Below are positions 19,122 through 55,413 of a stretch of 64,000 nt of DNA, in pieces. Position 1 is the first letter of the stretch, and every line of letters starts with the position of its first letter. A program made the position numbers and the translations under genes. Origin of the DNA: Tetrahymena thermophila SB210. Lineage: Eukaryota > Ciliophora > Oligohymenophorea > Hymenostomatida > Tetrahymenidae. The stretch covers positions 45,236 to 109,235 of the forward strand of contig NW_002476376.1 in NCBI RefSeq assembly GCF_000189635.1, given 5' to 3'. A model generated the notes under the pieces. That model was not told the origin of the DNA. It searched no databases and saw only the letters and a program-made list of their open reading frames with translations.

Positions 19122-21190
19122 TAACAAATAAATTGGTGATGAAGGTGCATCAAGCTTAGGTTCTGCTTTAGCAAATTGCATTAATCTCTCAGATTTGACA
19201 CTTTACCTTAGGTAAAAACAATTTATTTGTTTTTGATTGTGATATTTTTAATTATAAAAACTAATTAAAAACAATAAAGCTCTTTTTTCTTTTTCTTTTT
19301 ATTGTGTTTGCTTTTTTTTTGTTCTTTCTTTGTTAATTTAGCTCATCATTTTATTTTCAACTTTTGCTTTTATTATTTATTTCTTATTATTTCATATTTT
19401 TTCTTCATTTTTTCCTTCTAATTAACTATTTAATGATATATTTTTTCTTCAATATTTAAAAAGTAACAATTAAATTGGTGATGAAGGTGCATCAGGCTTA
19501 GGTTCTGCTTTAGCAAATTGCATTAATCTCTCAGATTTGACACTTTACCTTTAGTAAAAACAGTTTATTTGTTTTGGATTGTGATATTTTTAATTATAAA
19601 AACTAATTAAAAACAATAAAGCTCTTTTTTCTTTTTGTTTTTATTGTGCTTGCTTTTTTTTTGTTCTTTATTTGTTAATTTAGCTCATCATTTTATTTTC
19701 AACTTTTGCTTTTATTATTTCATATTTTTTCTCATTTTTTCCTTCTAATTAACTATTTAATGATATATTTTTTCTTCAATATTTAAAAAGTCAAAATTAA
19801 ATTGGTGCAATTGGTGCATCAGGCTTAGGTTCTGCTTTAGCAAATTGCATTAATCTCTCAAATTTGGCACTTCACCTTGGGTAAAAATAATTTATTTGTT
19901 TTGGATTGTGATATTTTTAATTATAAAAACTAATTAAAAACAATAAAGCTCTTTTTTCTTTTTATTGTGCTTGCTTTTTTTTTTGTTCTTTCTTTGTTAA
20001 TTTAGCTCATCATTTTATTTTCAACTTTTGCTTTTATTATTTCATATTTTTTCTTCATTTTTTCCTTTAATTAACTATTTAATGATATATTTTTTCTTCA
20101 ATATTTAAAAAGTGATAATTAAATTGGTGCAATTGGTGCATCAGACTTAGGTTCTGCTTTAGCAAATTGCATTAATCTCTCAAATTTGACACTTGACCTT
20201 TGGTAAAAACAATTTATTTGTTTTGGATTGTGATATTTTTAATTATAAAAACTAATTAAAAACAATAAAGCTTTTTTTTCTTTTTCTTTTTATTGTGTTG
20301 CTTTTTTTTTGTTCATTCTTTGTTAATTTAGCTCATCATTTTATTTTCAACTTTTGCTTTTATTATTTATTTCTTATTATTTCATATTTTTTCTTCATTT
20401 TTTCCTTCTAATTAACTATTTAATGATATATTTTTTCTTCAATATTTAAAAAGGTCTAATTAAATTAGTGATGAAGGTGCATCAGGCTTAGGTTCTGCTT
20501 TAGCAAATTGCATTAATCTCTCAGATTTGACACTTTACCTTTAGTAAAAAAGTTTATTTGTTTTGGATTGTGATATTTTTAATTATAAAAACTAATTAAA
20601 AACAATAAAGCTCTTTTTTCTTTTTGTTTTTATTGTGCTTGCTTTTTTTTTGTTCTTTCTTTGTTAATTTAGCTCATCATTTTATTTTCAACTTTTGCTT
20701 TTATTATTTATTTCTTATTATTTCATATTTTTTCTTCATTTTTTCCTTCTAATTAACTATTTAATGATATATTTTTTCTTCAATATTTAAAAAGGTCTAA
20801 TTAAATTAGTGATGAAGGTGCATCAGGCTTAGGTTCTGCTTTAGCAAATTGCATTAATCTCTCAAATTTGACACTTTATTTTGGGTAAAAATAATTTATT
20901 TGTTTTGGATTGTGATATTTTAAACTACAAAAATGAATATAAAACAAAAAAAATCTTTGAATTTATTTGATAGCTTTTATTTTTTTATCTTTTTTATTCC
21001 ACTAATATTATTTTATTTATTAATTTAAAGAATAATTTTAAATTTAAAAGTTTATTCTAATTTGATATTTATTTTAAAATTTACACAAATTTATTATAAA
21101 AGTTTTAGCCCAATGAATGAATCATAAAAGTTCAAAGTATTAAGCAAGTTTCTTAAATCAAAAAGATTAGTTGTCTTTTATTTCTAATGA
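19122..21190 (+). CDS. LRR1: leucine-rich-repeat gene, 5' end missing or unrecognised
   Basis: Seven predicted exons: 19122-19211, 19464-19553, 19791-19880, 20113-20202, 20454-20543, 20795-20884 and 21103-21190. Six are exactly 90 bp and phase 2 at both ends. Each encodes one 30-residue LRR of the form NQIGDEGASGLGSALANC followed by INLSDLTLYL. The last exon encodes the shared C-terminus KVLSKFLKSKRLV and ends in TGA. All splice sites are GT..AG and no exon holds TGA, so the body could be functional. However, neither the 50-nt cap exon nor the 5' flank of LRR2 and LRR3 is found upstream; antigen 3 lies there on the other strand. The introns (about 220-250 nt) are nearly identical, indicating recent amplification of exon plus intron. 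LRRs of this ribonuclease-inhibitor-like type bind other proteins. Confidence 0.72.
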
Positions 21191-32866: not shown

Positions 32867-35800
32867 TTTTTAAATTCTTCACTATAATCTCATTTGGTAC
32901 TCCATATTTCTCTGTGGTATATTTAGTTTATTAATATTATTATTAAAGTCATTTTATTTAATAATTTTCAAGTTATTTACTAAATTTTTTCTTTTAGAAA
33001 TTCTCATCAATATTTATTTATTCATTTTTATTTATATAAATAATTTAATTATTTATTTTATCTTAATTTTCATTTTCAACTTTTTTCATTTCTTATTATT
33101 TTTTATTATTTCTTCATTTATTTTTTCATTCTGATTTACTAATTAATTATATTTTTTTCTTCAATATTCAAAAAGTTACAATCGTATTGGTGCAATTGCT
33201 ACATCAGGCTTAGGTACTGCTTTAGCAAATTGTAATAATCTCTTAGATTTGACGCTTGATCTTAGGTACTAATAGTTTTGGATATTGCCATCTTTTTTAA
33301 TATAAAAAAGGATATAAAACAAAATAACACTTTTTATTTTATAAAATTTTTATTAATAATAATATTTCTAATTAATTTTTATTTTAACTGAAATAAAATC
33401 AAAATAGTAAGTAAAATTTACTTAATTTATTTTCTAGTATCTTTTAAAAATCAATCTCAACTAAGATTCAGATTTTAATCTTAAATTTTTATGAGATTTA
33501 AAAAAAATTTCATTTATTAATTATTTAATTTCAAAATACTTTCATTTATTTTATAAAGCAAAAATAAATACTTCTTTTTTTATAATAATATTTAAGAAAA
33601 AAGGTAAAAAATTAATTAAAATTTGCAATAATTTTTTTTTATTTTTAATAATTTACTAAAAAGGAAATATTTTACTTATTAAATAATAAATATTTCCTTT
33701 TAAAATAATTCAGCATATATATATGTATTAGAAAATCAAAATCTATTCTAAATAAATAAAATTAATATCTGAAATTACATTTAAATTTAAAAATTAAAAA
33801 AAAAATGTAATAAAAATAAATAAAAAATTATTTATTCAATTAATTAAACTACTTTAGAGCAAATAAATCTATGAATAAAATTCTTAATTTTCCCCATCTA
33901 CAAAAATTTAATTAATACCTGGAAGTGCTATATTTTCTTTTTAACTTACTAAATAATATTTTTTTCTTCAATAATTAAAAAGAGGAACTTAGATTGGTGC
34001 AATTGGTGTATCAGGCTTAGGTTCTGCTTTAGCAAGTTGTATTAATCTCTTAAATTTGACACTAGATCTTAGGTATAAAATATTTTATTTGTTTTGGAAA
34101 TTGCGATCTTTATTAATATAAAAATGAATATCAAATAATATAACTCTTTTAATTTATTATTAAACTTTTTATTTGAATTATTATTCTTTATGTTTTTAAA
34201 TTCTTCTTGTTTTTCTTTGCTTCTTTGCTAATTTAACTTATTTTTTTATTTTTCAACTTTTGATTTTGTTATAAATGAGTTCATTCATTTCTTATTATTT
34301 ATTTCACATCGTTTCTTCATTTTTTTTTTCTAACTAGATATTTTTTTGTTCTAAATTTAAAAAGTGGAAATTTAATAGATACAATTGCTGTACTAGGCTT
34401 GGGTTCTGGATTAGCAAAATGCACTAACCTCTCAAATTTGACACTTACTCTTTAGTAAATTTTTAGTTTTGAATAAAATGAATTTAAAAAAATATAACTA
34501 ACTCTTTTAATTTATTAGTAACATTTTTTTATTTTCAACTTTTGCATTTTTTATTTAGTTTTTCTTCATTTTTTATTTCTAACTAACTAACTAGTTAACT
34601 AATTAATTAATTATATTTTTTTCTTGAATATTTAAAAAGTTCTAATTAAATTGGTGATGATGGTGCTTCAGGCTTAGGTTCATCTTTAGCAATGTGCACT
34701 AACCTCTCAAATTTAACACTTGATCTTGGGTAAAAATAGTTTATTTGTTTGAATATTATAGAAAAAAAATGAATTTAAAACAATTTAACTCTTTTAATTT
34801 ATTAATAACTTATTATTTGATTTTTTTAATTTTTATTCTACTTCTTTTTTTATCTTTCAATGTTTATTTTACTAATTTTTTTTATTTTTACTTTTTCTTT
34901 TATTTTTAATTAATTATTTTTTTATTATTTCATTATGTATAAATTAATTAATTATATTTTTTTCAAAGTCGCAATAATATTAGTGATTAAGGTACATCAG
35001 GCTTAGGTTCTGCACTAGCAAAATGCACTAATCTCTCAAATTTAACACTATAAATTCGGTAAAAACAGTTTATTTGTTTTGGATAAAGTGATATTTTTTA
35101 ATTTAAAAAAATGAATTTAAAACAAAATAACTCTTATAATTTATTTGTAAGTTTTTTATGTTGTTTATTTTTCTTTACTTTTTTTTATTCTGCTTATATA
35201 TTTTTTCTTTCTTTGTTAATTTAACTAATATTTATTTTCATTTTTCTACTTTTGCTTTTATTAATAATTAATTAATTCAATTGTTTCTTCATTTTTTCAT
35301 TCAAACCAACTAATTAATATTATTTTTTTCTTCAATATTTAAAAAGCGAAAATTAAATTGGTGCAATTGGTGGATCAGATTTAGGTTATGGTTTAGCAAA
35401 GTGCACTAATCTTTCAAATTTGACGCTTCAACTTCGGTAAAAAAAGTTTATTTATTTTGGTTATTGGGATATTTTTAATTTAAAAAAATGAATTTAAAGC
35501 ATATATTGTTATCTCTTTTTTCGATTTATTTTTCTTTTTCTCTTTAATTATGCTCATGTTTTTTTTTATTTGTTAATTTAACTAATTTTTTATTTTCAAC
35601 TTTTGTATTTATTATTAATTAATTAATTTTTATTATTTCATTTTGTTGTTTCTAATTTTTTCCATCTAGCTAACCTATTAATTTTATTTTTTTCTTCAAT
35701 ATTTAAAAAGTTGCAATTAAATTGGTGCAATTGGAGCATCAGTCTTAGGTTCTGCTTTAGCAAATTGCATTAAACTCTCAAATTTGACACTTCAACTTCA

Positions 35801-38800
35801 GTAAAAAAAGTTTATTTGCTTGGATATTATGATATTGTATAAAATGAATTAATAACAATATTGCTCTTAATTTATTTATTAGCTTTTTATTTGATTTATT
35901 TTTCTTTTTTTTATTCTATTAATTTTTTTCTTCTTTTTTGTTCATTTAAATAATTTTTTTATTTTGTTTTAATTCATATTATTTCTTCATTTTTCCTTCT
36001 AACTAACTAAAAAATTATACTTCTTTCTTAAACATTTAAAAAGAGAAAATGAAATTGGTGCTGTCGGTGCATCAGGCTTATGCTCTGCATTAGCAAAATG
36101 CACTAATCTCTCAAATTTTACACTTGATCTTTTGTAAAAATAATTTTGTTTTGTTTTGGATATTATGATCATTTTTAATATAAAAATGAAATTAAAATAA
36201 ATAGCTCTTTTAATTTATTTTATTAATAATCATTTTTTGATTTTCAACATTTTCTTTAATAATTTAGTTTTACTTCACTTTTTCTTTCTTTCTAATTAAC
36301 TAGCTAATTAATAATATTTTTTTCTTCAATCAATAATTAAAAAGTTACAATGAAATTGGTGATGAAGGTGCAACAGGTTTAGGTTCTGCATTAGCAAAAT
36401 GCACTAATCTCTCAAATTTGATACTTTGTTTAAAGTAAAACCAGTTTTTTTCTTTGAATATTTTGATAATTATTAATTTAAAAATGAAGCTAAAATAATA
36501 GAAATCTTTTAATTTATTAATACATTTCTATTTGATTTATTTTTTTTACCTTTTTATTCTGCTTATATTTTTTTTCTTTCTTTGTTAATTTAACTAATAT
36601 TTTCATTTAACTTCTTTTGATTTTATTATTTATTAATTAATTTCTTTGTTTATTCATTTTTTTTCATTCAAAATAACTAATTAATTTTATTTTTTTCTTT
36701 TTCATTTAAAAAGTGAAAATTAAATTGGCGCAATTGGTGCATCAGGTTTAGGTTAAGGTTTAGCAAAGTGCACTAATCTCTCAAATTTGAAGCTTCTACT
36801 TAGGTAAAAACATATTATTTGTTATGGATATTGTGATTTATAAAATAAATTTATAAAAAAAATAAAAATTTTTATTTTTTTATTTTATTTTTATTGTATT
36901 TGTGTTTTTTTTTTATCTTTCTTTGTTAATTTAACTCATTTTTTCATTTTCAACTTTTTCTTTTATATAAATTTATTCATTTCTTATTATTCATATTTTT
37001 TATTTATTTATTTATTTATTTTTTCTTTCTTTCTTTCTTTCTAACTAACTAATTAATTTTATTTATTTCTTAAATATTAAAAAAGAGAAAATTAAATTGA
37101 TGCAATTGGTGCGTAAGGCTTAGGCTCTGAATTAGCAAAATGCATTAATCTCTCAAATTTGACACTTCAACTTTGGTAAGATAGATTCTTTGTTATGGAT
37201 ATTGATTGATATTGTTATATTTTTTAATAAAAAATGAATTTATAAAAATACAACTTACTCTTTTAATTTATTTATTTATTAGCTCTTTATTTGATTTCTT
37301 TTTCTTTTTTATTCAACTTTTTTTTTTTACTAAACTTTAATTTTTCTTTTATTTTTAATTAATTAATTTCTTATTATTTAATATTTTTATTAATTTTTTC
37401 TTTTTAAGTAACTAAATAATTTTATTTTTTTCTTGAATATTTAAAAAGCGAAAATTAAATTGGTGCAATTGGTGCATAAGACTTAGGTTATGAATTATCA
37501 AAGTGCATTAATCTCTAAAATTTAATACTTGAACTTAGGTAAAATCAGTTTATTTTTATTTGTTTTAGATATTGTGATATTTTTATTTTAAAAATGAATA
37601 AAATATTATTTTTTTATTTATTTTTTAGCTTTTTATTTAATTTATTTTTCTTTTTCTTTTTCATTCTGTTGATATTTTTTTTTTCTTTTTTAATTTTCAA
37701 CTTTTTCAATTTTTATTAATTAATTTCATATTATTTGATTTGTTTTTCATTTTTTCTTTCTAACTAACTAATTAATTATTTTGTTTTGTTTTTCTGAATC
37801 TTTAAAAAGCGAAAATTAAATTGGTGCAATTGGTGCATCAAACTTGGGTTCTTAATTAGCAAAGTGCACTAATCTCTTTAATTTGACACTTGATCTTAGG
37901 TAAAAACTGTTTATTTGTATTGGATATTGTAATATTTTTTAATATAAAATATGATTTAAAAAAATATTTCTCTTTTAATTTATTAGCTTTTATTAGATTT
38001 ATTTCTCTTTTTCTTTTTTATTCTTCTTATATTTTTTTTCTTTTTTTTTAATTTATAACTTTCTTTTATTATTAATTAATAATTCATTTCTTATTATTGC
38101 ATTTTTTTCTTTATTTCCTTCTATCTTCAATATTTAAAAAGTCAAAATTAAATTAATGATGAAGGTGTATAGGGTTTAGCTTCTGAATTAGTAAACTGTA
38201 CTAATATCTCAAATTTGACACTTGATCTTAAGTAAAATTTTTTTTTTCGTTTTGGATTTGGCAATATTTTTTAATAAAAAAATTAATCTAAAAAAGATTT
38301 AACCACCCTTTTAATTTATTAATTTACTTTTTATTCAATTTATTTTCTTTTTTATTTTACTTATTATTTTTTTTATAATTAAATTTACTAATTTTTTAAT
38401 TTTCAACTTTTTCTTTATTTTTAATTTATTATTATTTTATATTTTTTCTTTCAGACTAACTAATTAATTATATTTTTTCTTCAATATTTAAAAAGCGAAA
38501 ATTAAATTGGTGCAATTGGTGTATCAGATTTAGGTTCTGAATTAGCAAAGTTCGCTAATCTCTCAAATTTAATAATTAAACTCAGGTAAAATCAGTTTAT
38601 TTGTTTAGAATATTGTGATATTTTTAAATTAAAAATGAAAAAATTATTAATCTTTTAATTTTTTAGCTTTTTATTTTATTTATTTTTTCTTTTTTTTATT
38701 ATTTTCCCTATTTTTTCTTTCTTCTTTTTTTGTTAAATTAACTAATTTTTTCATTTTCAACTTTTTCTTTTATACTAATTATTTATTTTTTTCAATATTT

Positions 38801-39145
38801 AAAAAGTTAAAATGAAATTGATGATGGAGGTGCATTAAGCTTAGGCTCTGCTTTATCAAAGTGTACTAATCTCTCAAATTTAACACTTTATCTTGGGTAA
38901 TAACAATTTATTTGTTTTGGATATTGTGATATTTTTTAATTTAAAAATGAATTTAAAACAATTTTATTTTTTAGCTTTTTATTTGATTTATTTTCCTTTT
39001 TTTATTAATATAATTTTTTTAGTAATTTAATTTAATTGACAATAAAAGTTAAAATAAAATCAATGAATCATCATAATTGAAAGTAATAAGCAAGTTTCTT
39101 AAATCAAAAAGATTAGTTGCCATTCAAATAAATTTTTATTTTTGA
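32867..39145 (+). CDS. LRR2: leucine-rich-repeat protein, 18 predicted exons
   Basis: A 50-nt exon (32867-32916, FLNSSLQSHLVLHISL) is followed by sixteen 90-bp exons starting at 33176, 33983, 34365, 34640, 34969, 35347, 35711, 36044, 36345, 36714, 37086, 37449, 37810, 38142, 38496 and 38807. A terminal exon 39049-39145 (KVISKFLKSKRLV..TGA) follows. Every repeat exon is 90 bp, phase 2 at both ends, starts after AAAAAG or a close form and ends before GTAA or GTAT. Together they give 529 codons with no TGA inside. Each repeat reads like ENQIGAIGASGLGSALAKC then TNLSNLTLDL, a ribonuclease-inhibitor-like LRR and likely protein-binding. A true first exon with ATG is not identified. Intron 2 is longer (717 nt) than the others (about 190-330 nt). 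Repeats are much more diverged than in LRR1, so this is an older array. Confidence 0.8.
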
Positions 39146-53439: not shown

Positions 53440-54191
53440 TCAATAGAAATATATTTCATAGACAACTAATCTTTTTGATTTAAGACACTTGCTTTTTACT
53501 TTCAATTATTATGATTCATTGATTTTGTTTCCACTTTTATATAAAATTAAATAAAGTAAAATATTTAAAAAAATTAAATTAAATAAAAACTAAAAAAAGA
53601 TTAGCAGGATAATAAAGAAAAAGAAAAAAAATCAAATAAAAAGTTAATAAATAAACTAAAAGAGTTAGTTATATTGTTTTAAATTTAATTTTATAAATAA
53701 ATATATCACGATCCAAAACAAATAAACTGTTTTTACCCAAGTTCAATTGATAAGTTTGAGATATTAGTGCAATTTGCTAAAGCACAACCTAAGCTTGATG
53801 CACCGATTGCCCCAATTTTATTGTATCTTATTAAATATTGAAAATATATAATTAATTAGTTATTTAGATGGAAAAAATGAAGAAAAAATATGAAATAATA
53901 AGAAATGAATTAATTAAAAATAAAAGCAGATATTAAAAATAGAAAAATGAATTAAATTAGTAAAGATAGAAGAAAGAAAAAAAACAAATACAATAAAAAA
54001 GAAGAAGAAAAATAAATTAAATAAAAAACTAATAAATATTTTAAAAGAGAGTTATTATGTTTTAAATTTAATTTTTTTAAATAAAAATATCACAACCCAA
54101 AACAAATAAACTATTTTTACCTAAGATGAAGTATCAAATTTGAGAGATTAGTGCAATTTGTTAAAGCAAAACCTAAGCTTGATGCACCTTA

Positions 54192-54204
54192 ATCACCAAT
54201 TTTA
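54192..54204. repeat. Target-site duplication, left copy
   Basis: ATCACCAATTTTA, identical to 54729-54741, bounding the insertion in the LRR3 repeat exon. Confidence 0.85.
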
Positions 54205-54728
54205 AAAAGAAATAAATTAGTAAAAATAAAATTTGTAAAAATAACAAAAGAAAGACAAAACTCATAGCCAAAGGGCAAGACAGGCAAAATAGTCTAGTAA
54301 GGAGCAAATCAAAAATCCTTCATGTCCGCTCCCCACTTAGAGTTCATTTGGGTTAAGATTCTTTAAGTATTCTCTCTTCCACGTTCCATACTGGAAGATA
54401 TACTTAAAGAATGATTGTCGACTTGGCGTTCCATATACACAAGTCTCAATCCGAACCAACAAATGAAATCCATATCTAATGTGGTCTGGAACAAAAAGAA
54501 GGAAAATTAAATAAATATTATATTTTATTATGTGAATAAAGCAGGATTTATAGTTTAAATTCATTTTAAACTATACTTGCTCACTATAAATAATCTAAAA
54601 TTCAATAATTGGTATACTTAATAAGCATAAAAATAAATAAAAATATAAATAAATATTATAAAATAGTTAATTTAAGAGTTATTCTGAGTGCATATTTATG
54701 TGCAAGTATTTCTATTCTATTCTATTCT
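54205..54728 (+). mobile_element. 524-bp SINE-like retroelement insertion
   Basis: It is flanked by perfect 13-bp direct repeats and interrupts an otherwise regular 90-bp LRR exon. The right end is a pentanucleotide tail (about four ATTCT units, 54708-54728), as in non-LTR retroelements primed on the target. Near the left end are an A-box-like TAGCCAAAGGG (54265-54275) and a B-box-like GAGCAAATC (54302-54310, one mismatch to consensus), spaced as in tRNA-derived SINEs. About 60 bp of A-rich sequence precedes the A box, which is unusual. The body (54320-54490) is G+C-richer than its surroundings. A reverse frame at 54337-54564 lies in it and is not convincing as a gene. No reverse transcriptase is encoded. 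Confidence 0.7.
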
Positions 54729-54741
54729 ATCACCAATTTTA
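54729..54741. repeat. Target-site duplication, right copy
   Basis: ATCACCAATTTTA, identical to 54192-54204, directly after the pentanucleotide tail. Confidence 0.85.
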
Positions 54742-55413
54742 TTCCCACTTTTTAAATATTAAAGAAAAAATATATTATTGATTAGTTATTTAGAAGGAAA
54801 AAATGAAGAAAAATATCAAATAATAAGAAATGAATTAATAATTAAATAATAAAAGTAAATGTTGAAAATAGATAAATGAGTTAAATAAATTAAGAAACAT
54901 AGAACAAAAAAAAACACAAGTGCAATAAAAAAGAAATAGAAATTAAATAAAAAGCTAATAAACAAATTAAAAGAGTAATATTGTTTTAAATTCGTTTTTA
55001 TAAATTAAAATATCACAATTCAAAACAAATAAACTGTTTTTACTAAAGATCAAGGGTCAAATCTGAGAGATTAGTGCATTTTGCTAAAGCAGAACTTAAA
55101 TCTGATGCCTCGCTTGCACCAATTTATTTAGAACTTTTTAAATATTGAAGAAAAAAAATAAAATATTAGTTATTTAGAAAGAAAAAATGAAGAAATAATA
55201 AGAAATGAATTAATAAATAATAAAAACAAATGTTGGAAATAAAAAATGAGTTAAATTAAGAAAGATAGAAGATAAAAAACACAAGTTCAGTAAACAAGAT
55301 AAAGAAAATAAATTAAATAAAAAGCTAATAAATAAACTAACAAAATTTAAAAATGAAATATACCTAAGATAAATATGGAGAACCTAATGAGATTACAGTG
55401 AAGAATTTAAAAA

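Follow-up and report, generated by a model that had tools for sequence, protein, structure and literature searches.

The window analysed here, a 64,000-nucleotide stretch of contig NW_002476376.1 of Tetrahymena thermophila SB210, is A+T-rich (G+C 16–31 % in 2-kb steps). Its plus strand carries two arrays of 90-nt LRR exons (6 exons, 19122–20884; 16 exons, 33176–38896), and on the minus strand a group of such exons surrounds a 524-bp insert (Table 1). The insert is bounded by a perfect 13-bp target duplication and its 3′ end consists of a (TTCTA)n tail, both of which had been pointed out in a preliminary description of this DNA. Deletion of the insert and one repeat copy restores, on the minus strand, an LRR exon of exactly 90 nt between AG and GT, confirming that the borders are defined to the base; read in phase 2 with the ciliate code, this exon gives GNKIGDQGASSLGFALTNCTNLSNLILHL. 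The duplication corresponds to nt 7–19 of the exon, so the insertion is exonic as had been stated, and the insert lies antisense to the minus-strand LRR gene. Together with relatives at different flanks (see below), the duplication and the short-repeat tail uphold the view that this is a retroposed element.

Table 1. Features of the insert and its surroundings in the window (window coordinates)
Feature	Position	Strand	Basis
Retroelement copy, 524 bp, no recognised coding region	54205–54728	+	Bounds of the 13-bp duplication; 3′ parts common to the C81, C167, C119 and other copies
Target duplication, left copy, ATCACCAATTTTA	54192–54204		Direct repeat
Target duplication, right copy, ATCACCAATTTTA	54729–54741		Direct repeat
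Single-copy 5′ part, G+C-richer stretch and long hairpin (~54357–54413)	54205–54438	+	Own-genome comparison, folding
3′ non-coding part, shared from 54439 on with C81 and from 54458 on with C167	54439–54673	+	Genome comparison
Conserved tail of ~54 bp, (TTCTA)n at its end	54674–54728	+	Tail copies; length and copy number fit the 54-bp tail of Tt.REP as given in the available text of PMC6564038
3′ hairpin, GTGCAT-ATTT-ATGTGC	54688–54703	+	Predicted fold; stem and loop compared in 108 tail copies and 26 SINEs
Pentanucleotide tail, (TTCTA)n	54710–54728	+	Window sequence
84 nt of the 90-nt host LRR exon	54121–54204	−	Exon reconstruction
First 6 nt of the 90-nt host LRR exon, preceded by acceptor AAAAAG	54742–54747	−	Exon reconstruction
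Intact neighbouring 90-nt LRR exon	53737–53826	−	Exon reading
Intact neighbouring 90-nt LRR exon	55044–55133	−	Exon reading

No recognisable coding was found when the six ciliate-code frames of the 524 bp were inspected by eye; the frames run long, since only TGA acts as a stop. As a whole, the element is predicted to fold better than 100 of 100 shuffles (z −4.8), and its single-copy head contains a near-perfect long hairpin. LRR intron sequence was considered as the source of the first 58 nt and rejected, as 113 of 200 shuffles scored equally well.

The preliminary description had called the insert SINE-like, citing the direct repeats, the pentanucleotide tail and A- and B-box-like sites. One A-box match is present, at 54265 (TAGCCAAAGGG); however, shuffling produces such a match too, in 196/1000 cases for the whole element and in 88/1000 for its G+C-richer part. 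The B box did not hold up, as none exists in the element at zero or one mismatch (there is one at two). ARAGORN returned no tRNA over the window, Rfam returned no match over 54100–54850 at E values up to 1, and the first 234 bp have no second copy in the own genome. On these results the element does not qualify as a tRNA-type SINE, and the SINE identity proposed for this copy is rejected.

The genome assembly (101 Mb, 445 contigs, with the window in contig C161) matches a 160-nt T. thermophila telomerase RNA gene at 100 % identity and is taken as the macronuclear genome of this species, although a close relative could have the same RNA. Comparison of the element with this genome returned, besides the element itself, at least 40 other matches (best 40 of 136 candidates scored), all of which fall in the 3′ part. 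The nearest relatives among the matches scored are on contigs C81 (303 bp, 97 % identity), C167 (287 bp, 97 %) and C119 (195 bp, 94 %), while the remainder correspond to approximately the last 80–150 bp of the element (78–88 % identity). The check proposed in the preliminary description, a search for other copies of the insert with different flanks, thus found relatives of the 3′ part, with its 40 further matches, and none of the first 234 bp. A 20-base word from the tail, searched with up to two mismatches, was detected at 122 genome places (reversed-word control, 0) and occurs once in the window, at the insert. We read 108 distinct tail copies, comprising all 90 exact-word places, 14 places with one or two mismatches and 4 copies of greater divergence; the first 38 stretches were chosen with a query that contained the 13-nt target copies and the later ones via the tail word alone. 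Two copies (L103 and L105) end in TTCAA-type rather than TTCTA repeats, with a hairpin and site of the same kind.

Tt.REP is the non-LTR retrotransposon that Fillingham is said to have reported from T. thermophila in 2004. The last ~55 bp of the window element looks like the common tail of this LINE-type group. In the available text of Xiong 2019 (PMC6564038), Tt.REP is described as having a 54-bp tail in 169 macronuclear places, and 76 % of Tt.REP occur with LRR units; introns are described as favoured targets. The conserved tail of ~54 bp, kept in the macronucleus in 100–200 copies and tied to LRR repeats with 90-bp exons, would be the likeness between that description and our data, the tail having been matched by description and count (122 places here). 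The published insertions are intronic or adjacent to LRR units (PMC6564038, available text), whereas those described here occupy one intra-exon position, are accompanied by a 13-bp duplication and have a SINE-like partner besides. As neither ORF1 nor ORF2 (endonuclease, reverse transcriptase) was recognised in the 524 bp, the window copy is not classed as a complete, autonomous REP. We consider it likely that the insert is a non-coding, incomplete copy of the tail group taken as REP, its targeting of the LRR-exon site included. Against this, no REP coding sequence was seen adjoining a tail; the sole RVT_1 match found in the assembly (L050, C134:182753–183433 and around) has none. It lies in a 942-aa frame that also matches Exo_endo_phos just below the cut-off, is uninterrupted in the ciliate code and has an open 5′ end in the stretch read, an odd find in a macronuclear genome.

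The element might instead represent a short, non-autonomous SINE-like family of its own, complete at 524 bp, with a structured non-tRNA head and borrowing the same enzyme. The exact 13-bp duplication at its 5′ end, the G+C-richer head, the strong predicted folding and the want of a recognised coding frame would all suit such a family. The head is single-copy, however, the nearest relatives have only the last 287–303 bp in common with it and no left duplication, and neither a B box (zero or one mismatch) nor an Rfam match is present; we regard this explanation as unlikely. As a variant of the REP assignment, and not exclusive of it, the germline copy may be longer, its interior having been lost by programmed DNA elimination with the macronuclear insert as the remainder. 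The macronucleus loses most REP sequence but retains the tails (PMC6564038, available text), and the C81 and C167 copies break off on the left within LRR intron sequence without a duplication, which could be due to later deletion or to imprecise developmental excision. The window copy, by contrast, has a clean duplication at its two ends, which simple 5′ truncation at insertion would give equally well, leaving elimination a reasonable possibility that stops short of being probable.

We scored the sequence downstream of each tail, without gaps, against 26 defined positions of the exon core and acceptor. At least 20 of 26 positions agreed in 94/108 tail copies, placing them at the LRR site, vs 0/540 shuffles and 36/540 random upstream windows, which can themselves contain intact LRR exons. 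Lowering the threshold to 18 gave 103/108, 4/540 and 41/540, respectively, with five tail copies scoring below it. The exact-word copies, which were chosen blind to their flanks, behaved in the same manner (79/90 at 20 or more; 88/90 at 18 or more), and a looser motif test found both motifs in 102 of the 108. By a fixed rule, 37 tail copies interrupt an exon, and 16 of these, the window copy among them, show a repeat of at least 9 nt (mostly 12–13 nt). For many other tail copies the nearest upstream exon is intact, so their left junction is lost or unrecognised. Near-consensus exon sites with at most three mismatches number 2078 (975 + 1103; control, 0), of which a few may be left halves of occupied sites, although the pattern spans the insertion point. 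In using one and the same position of a multicopy target, and in having duplications of constant length, the copies behave like site-specific non-LTR elements. The available text of PMC6564038 gives neither an exon position nor a duplication for REP insertions.

One tail copy (L076, C129:113600–117100) bears a tRNA-like head, which led to a SINE-like family at the same site. In this copy the head is fused to a body and tail resembling those of L060 and L094, indicating a chimera or later recombination. With its 99-nt head as query, at least 40 matches with 98–100 % identity were obtained (best 40 of 44 candidates scored). The family's element measures 398 nt and consists of the head, a body, a hairpin (CGAGTGCAT-loop-ATGTGCGAG) and a (TATG)n end. 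The head contains a match to the A-box consensus (GGGCTAAGCGG, one mismatch) and, 52 nt away, one to the B-box consensus (GGTTCGAATCC, exact), in the expected order. The label 'tRNA-like' refers to these boxes alone, since ARAGORN and Rfam called no tRNA in the two heads tested (L076 and L120) and the predicted fold contains no cloverleaf (z −0.3); nor was a source tRNA gene present among the best 40 of the 44 matches of the L076 head.

The (TATG)n family occupies 50 places (44 heads and 43 tails, 37 of them paired). Reading 30 of the 44 head places yielded 29 young heads and one older, diverged copy (L138, C121:40380–40620) that retains head and early body and is evidence of an older wave of the family. 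Both ends are present in 26 of the 29 young copies, the (TATG)n end being absent from L076, L127 and L131. All 26 two-ended copies, which were found via the head, agree with the LRR site at 21–26 of 26 positions, and all 26 are flanked by target duplications of 12–14 nt; in its many short copies with duplications the family resembles tRNA-derived SINEs. The duplications track variants of the host exon (e.g. L115, L118, L121, L124 and L136). Left and right repeats of the same copy agree over a mean of 12.9 nt, compared with 8.7 nt for mispaired repeats (maximum 9.85 in 2000 mispairings), so the duplications are not due to chance. We prefer these 26 unselected copies to an earlier comparison of 42 pairs (12.6 vs 8.7), which held 16 tail copies preselected for a repeat of at least 9 nt. 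The mean pairwise identity of the 26 copies is 99.3 % (lowest, 98.2 %), and the family is very young. A further locus (L102, C412:112550–113300) has a 5′-truncated SINE copy followed by a REP-type tail copy at the same exon site.

A search of the open-access literature on SINEs of ciliates and Tetrahymena and on target-specific non-LTR elements, mainly at the level of titles and the beginnings of abstracts, yielded no report of the (TATG)n family. Neither SINE nor tRNA occurs as a whole word in the main text of PMC6564038 as available, and the available text of the germline genome paper (PMC5182062) has no mention of SINEs. The preliminary description named short tRNA-like retroelements as something its author did not know from genomes of this kind. 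That is half right: REP beside LRR units had already been published (PMC6564038, available text), yet a SINE family with a tRNA-like head does occupy the same site here. The label 'SINE' is wrong for the window copy and right for its company.

Alternatively, the tail and the LRR unit might form a single repeat, spread as a whole through unequal crossing-over and not by insertion again and again. Recombination has been proposed to enlarge LRR exon arrays (PMC6564038, available text), and some loci have two tail copies. However, the duplications of the SINE-like copies are specific to each locus, about two thousand near-consensus exon sites are uninterrupted at the insertion point, and two unrelated bodies are found at the same site. 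Co-spread by recombination alone is disfavoured by the locus-specific duplications, and we regard it as highly improbable.

What the two families have in common is a 3′ hairpin with the arms GAGTGCAT-loop-ATGTGCGAGTAT. Its stem shows next to no variation, being kept in almost every one of the 108 tail copies and 26 SINEs, while the loop varies, reading TTAT in 72/108 and ATTT in 14/108 tail copies and being replaced by a longer, different stretch in the 26 SINEs. Folding of the tail by itself is at best weak relative to shuffles (z −0.6, 0.7 and −1.7). There may also be a weak common stretch (AATTGGTATAC, followed by A+T-rich sequence) upstream of the hairpin in the window element (54603–54651) and in the SINE copies. 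LINE/SINE pairs elsewhere share one enzyme, and since the 3′ end, the site and the duplication length are the same here, one shared enzyme is the simplest reading; most likely, the (TATG)n family uses that of the tail group.

tRNA-derived SINEs can have 3′ ends matching those of LINEs. The (TATG)n family is reminiscent of these, with its A and B boxes, its own body, the LINE-tail hairpin and a short-repeat tail; it differs in that the copies read sit at one target site only and in that the head has neither an ARAGORN or Rfam call nor a tRNA fold. The window element differs from them in having no tRNA-like head. Within ciliates, putative SINEs have been annotated in Paramecium as multi-copy sequences without coding potential (PMC5405496, available text), and they are likewise non-autonomous class I elements. 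They make up, however, a larger share of germline-limited DNA than of DNA destined for the macronucleus, and the same text makes no mention of site specificity.

From the fixed site, the locus-specific duplications and the common 3′ end, which are direct observations, we infer the following course of insertion, with the identity of the enzyme and the nick positions deduced from the junctions. The machinery of the tail group would read the conserved 3′ hairpin and tail, and integration would proceed through target-primed reverse transcription at a single position in the repeated LRR exon of 90 nt. An endonuclease would first nick the sense strand of the LRR gene after nt 19 of the exon, the reverse transcriptase would prime at the short-repeat tail, and a cut in the second strand ~13 nt away would give rise to the 13-bp duplication. 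Loss of the missing 5′ part may date from the insertion itself or from a later time, or may be due to developmental DNA elimination. The target codes for the I-G-D-(E/Q)-G stretch of the LRR repeats, and this coding may hold the site constant despite fast change of the genes. Such a site could act as a safe haven, offering about two thousand near-consensus positions in exons that are potentially skippable; as the exon is 90 nt long and in phase 2, skipping one keeps the frame, and exons that carry an insert may be skipped in this way.

A more elaborate arrangement was also considered, in which members of the group are self-intronising, i.e. a sense-strand acceptor in the 5′ end of the element, the 13-nt duplication and a few letters of the element would together rebuild a 90-nt phase-2 exon. 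Counted from a TAG in the SINE head, the exon is exactly 90 nt in 11/29 copies, the commonest length (the others being 87–100 nt); the frame is kept via this TAG in only 13/29 copies. Among broken-exon tail copies, CT lies 7–9 nt past the exon core in 11/25, vs 389/4800 shuffles. Two of these 11 (L021, L083) resemble the edges of native exons and a third, L076, is the SINE head, reducing the count to 8/22, several of which have one common head. The window element contains no acceptor-type site, and we consider self-intronisation doubtful. If true, it would let the element fall into a longer intron and would also explain the REP remnants described in introns.

R1/R2, SART1 and Utopia are non-LTR elements with specific sites in rDNA, telomeres or snRNA genes. 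Like them, the tail group and the SINE-like family insert at one position in a multicopy host sequence; the difference is that the target here codes for protein, being an exon in a gene family that evolves fast. Our data suggest a parasite with a single target spot within such a coding exon, and what is new is this precision, a single intra-exon target position, which turns the published loose association of REP with LRR units into a defined target. A very young SINE-like family moreover persists in the somatic nucleus of T. thermophila, a model ciliate that is known to remove its transposons. As a natural experiment, the system allows one to ask by what means a retroelement finds a protein-coding target, how somatic insertions are tolerated in ciliates, and whether the rapid turnover of LRR genes draws on such insertions.
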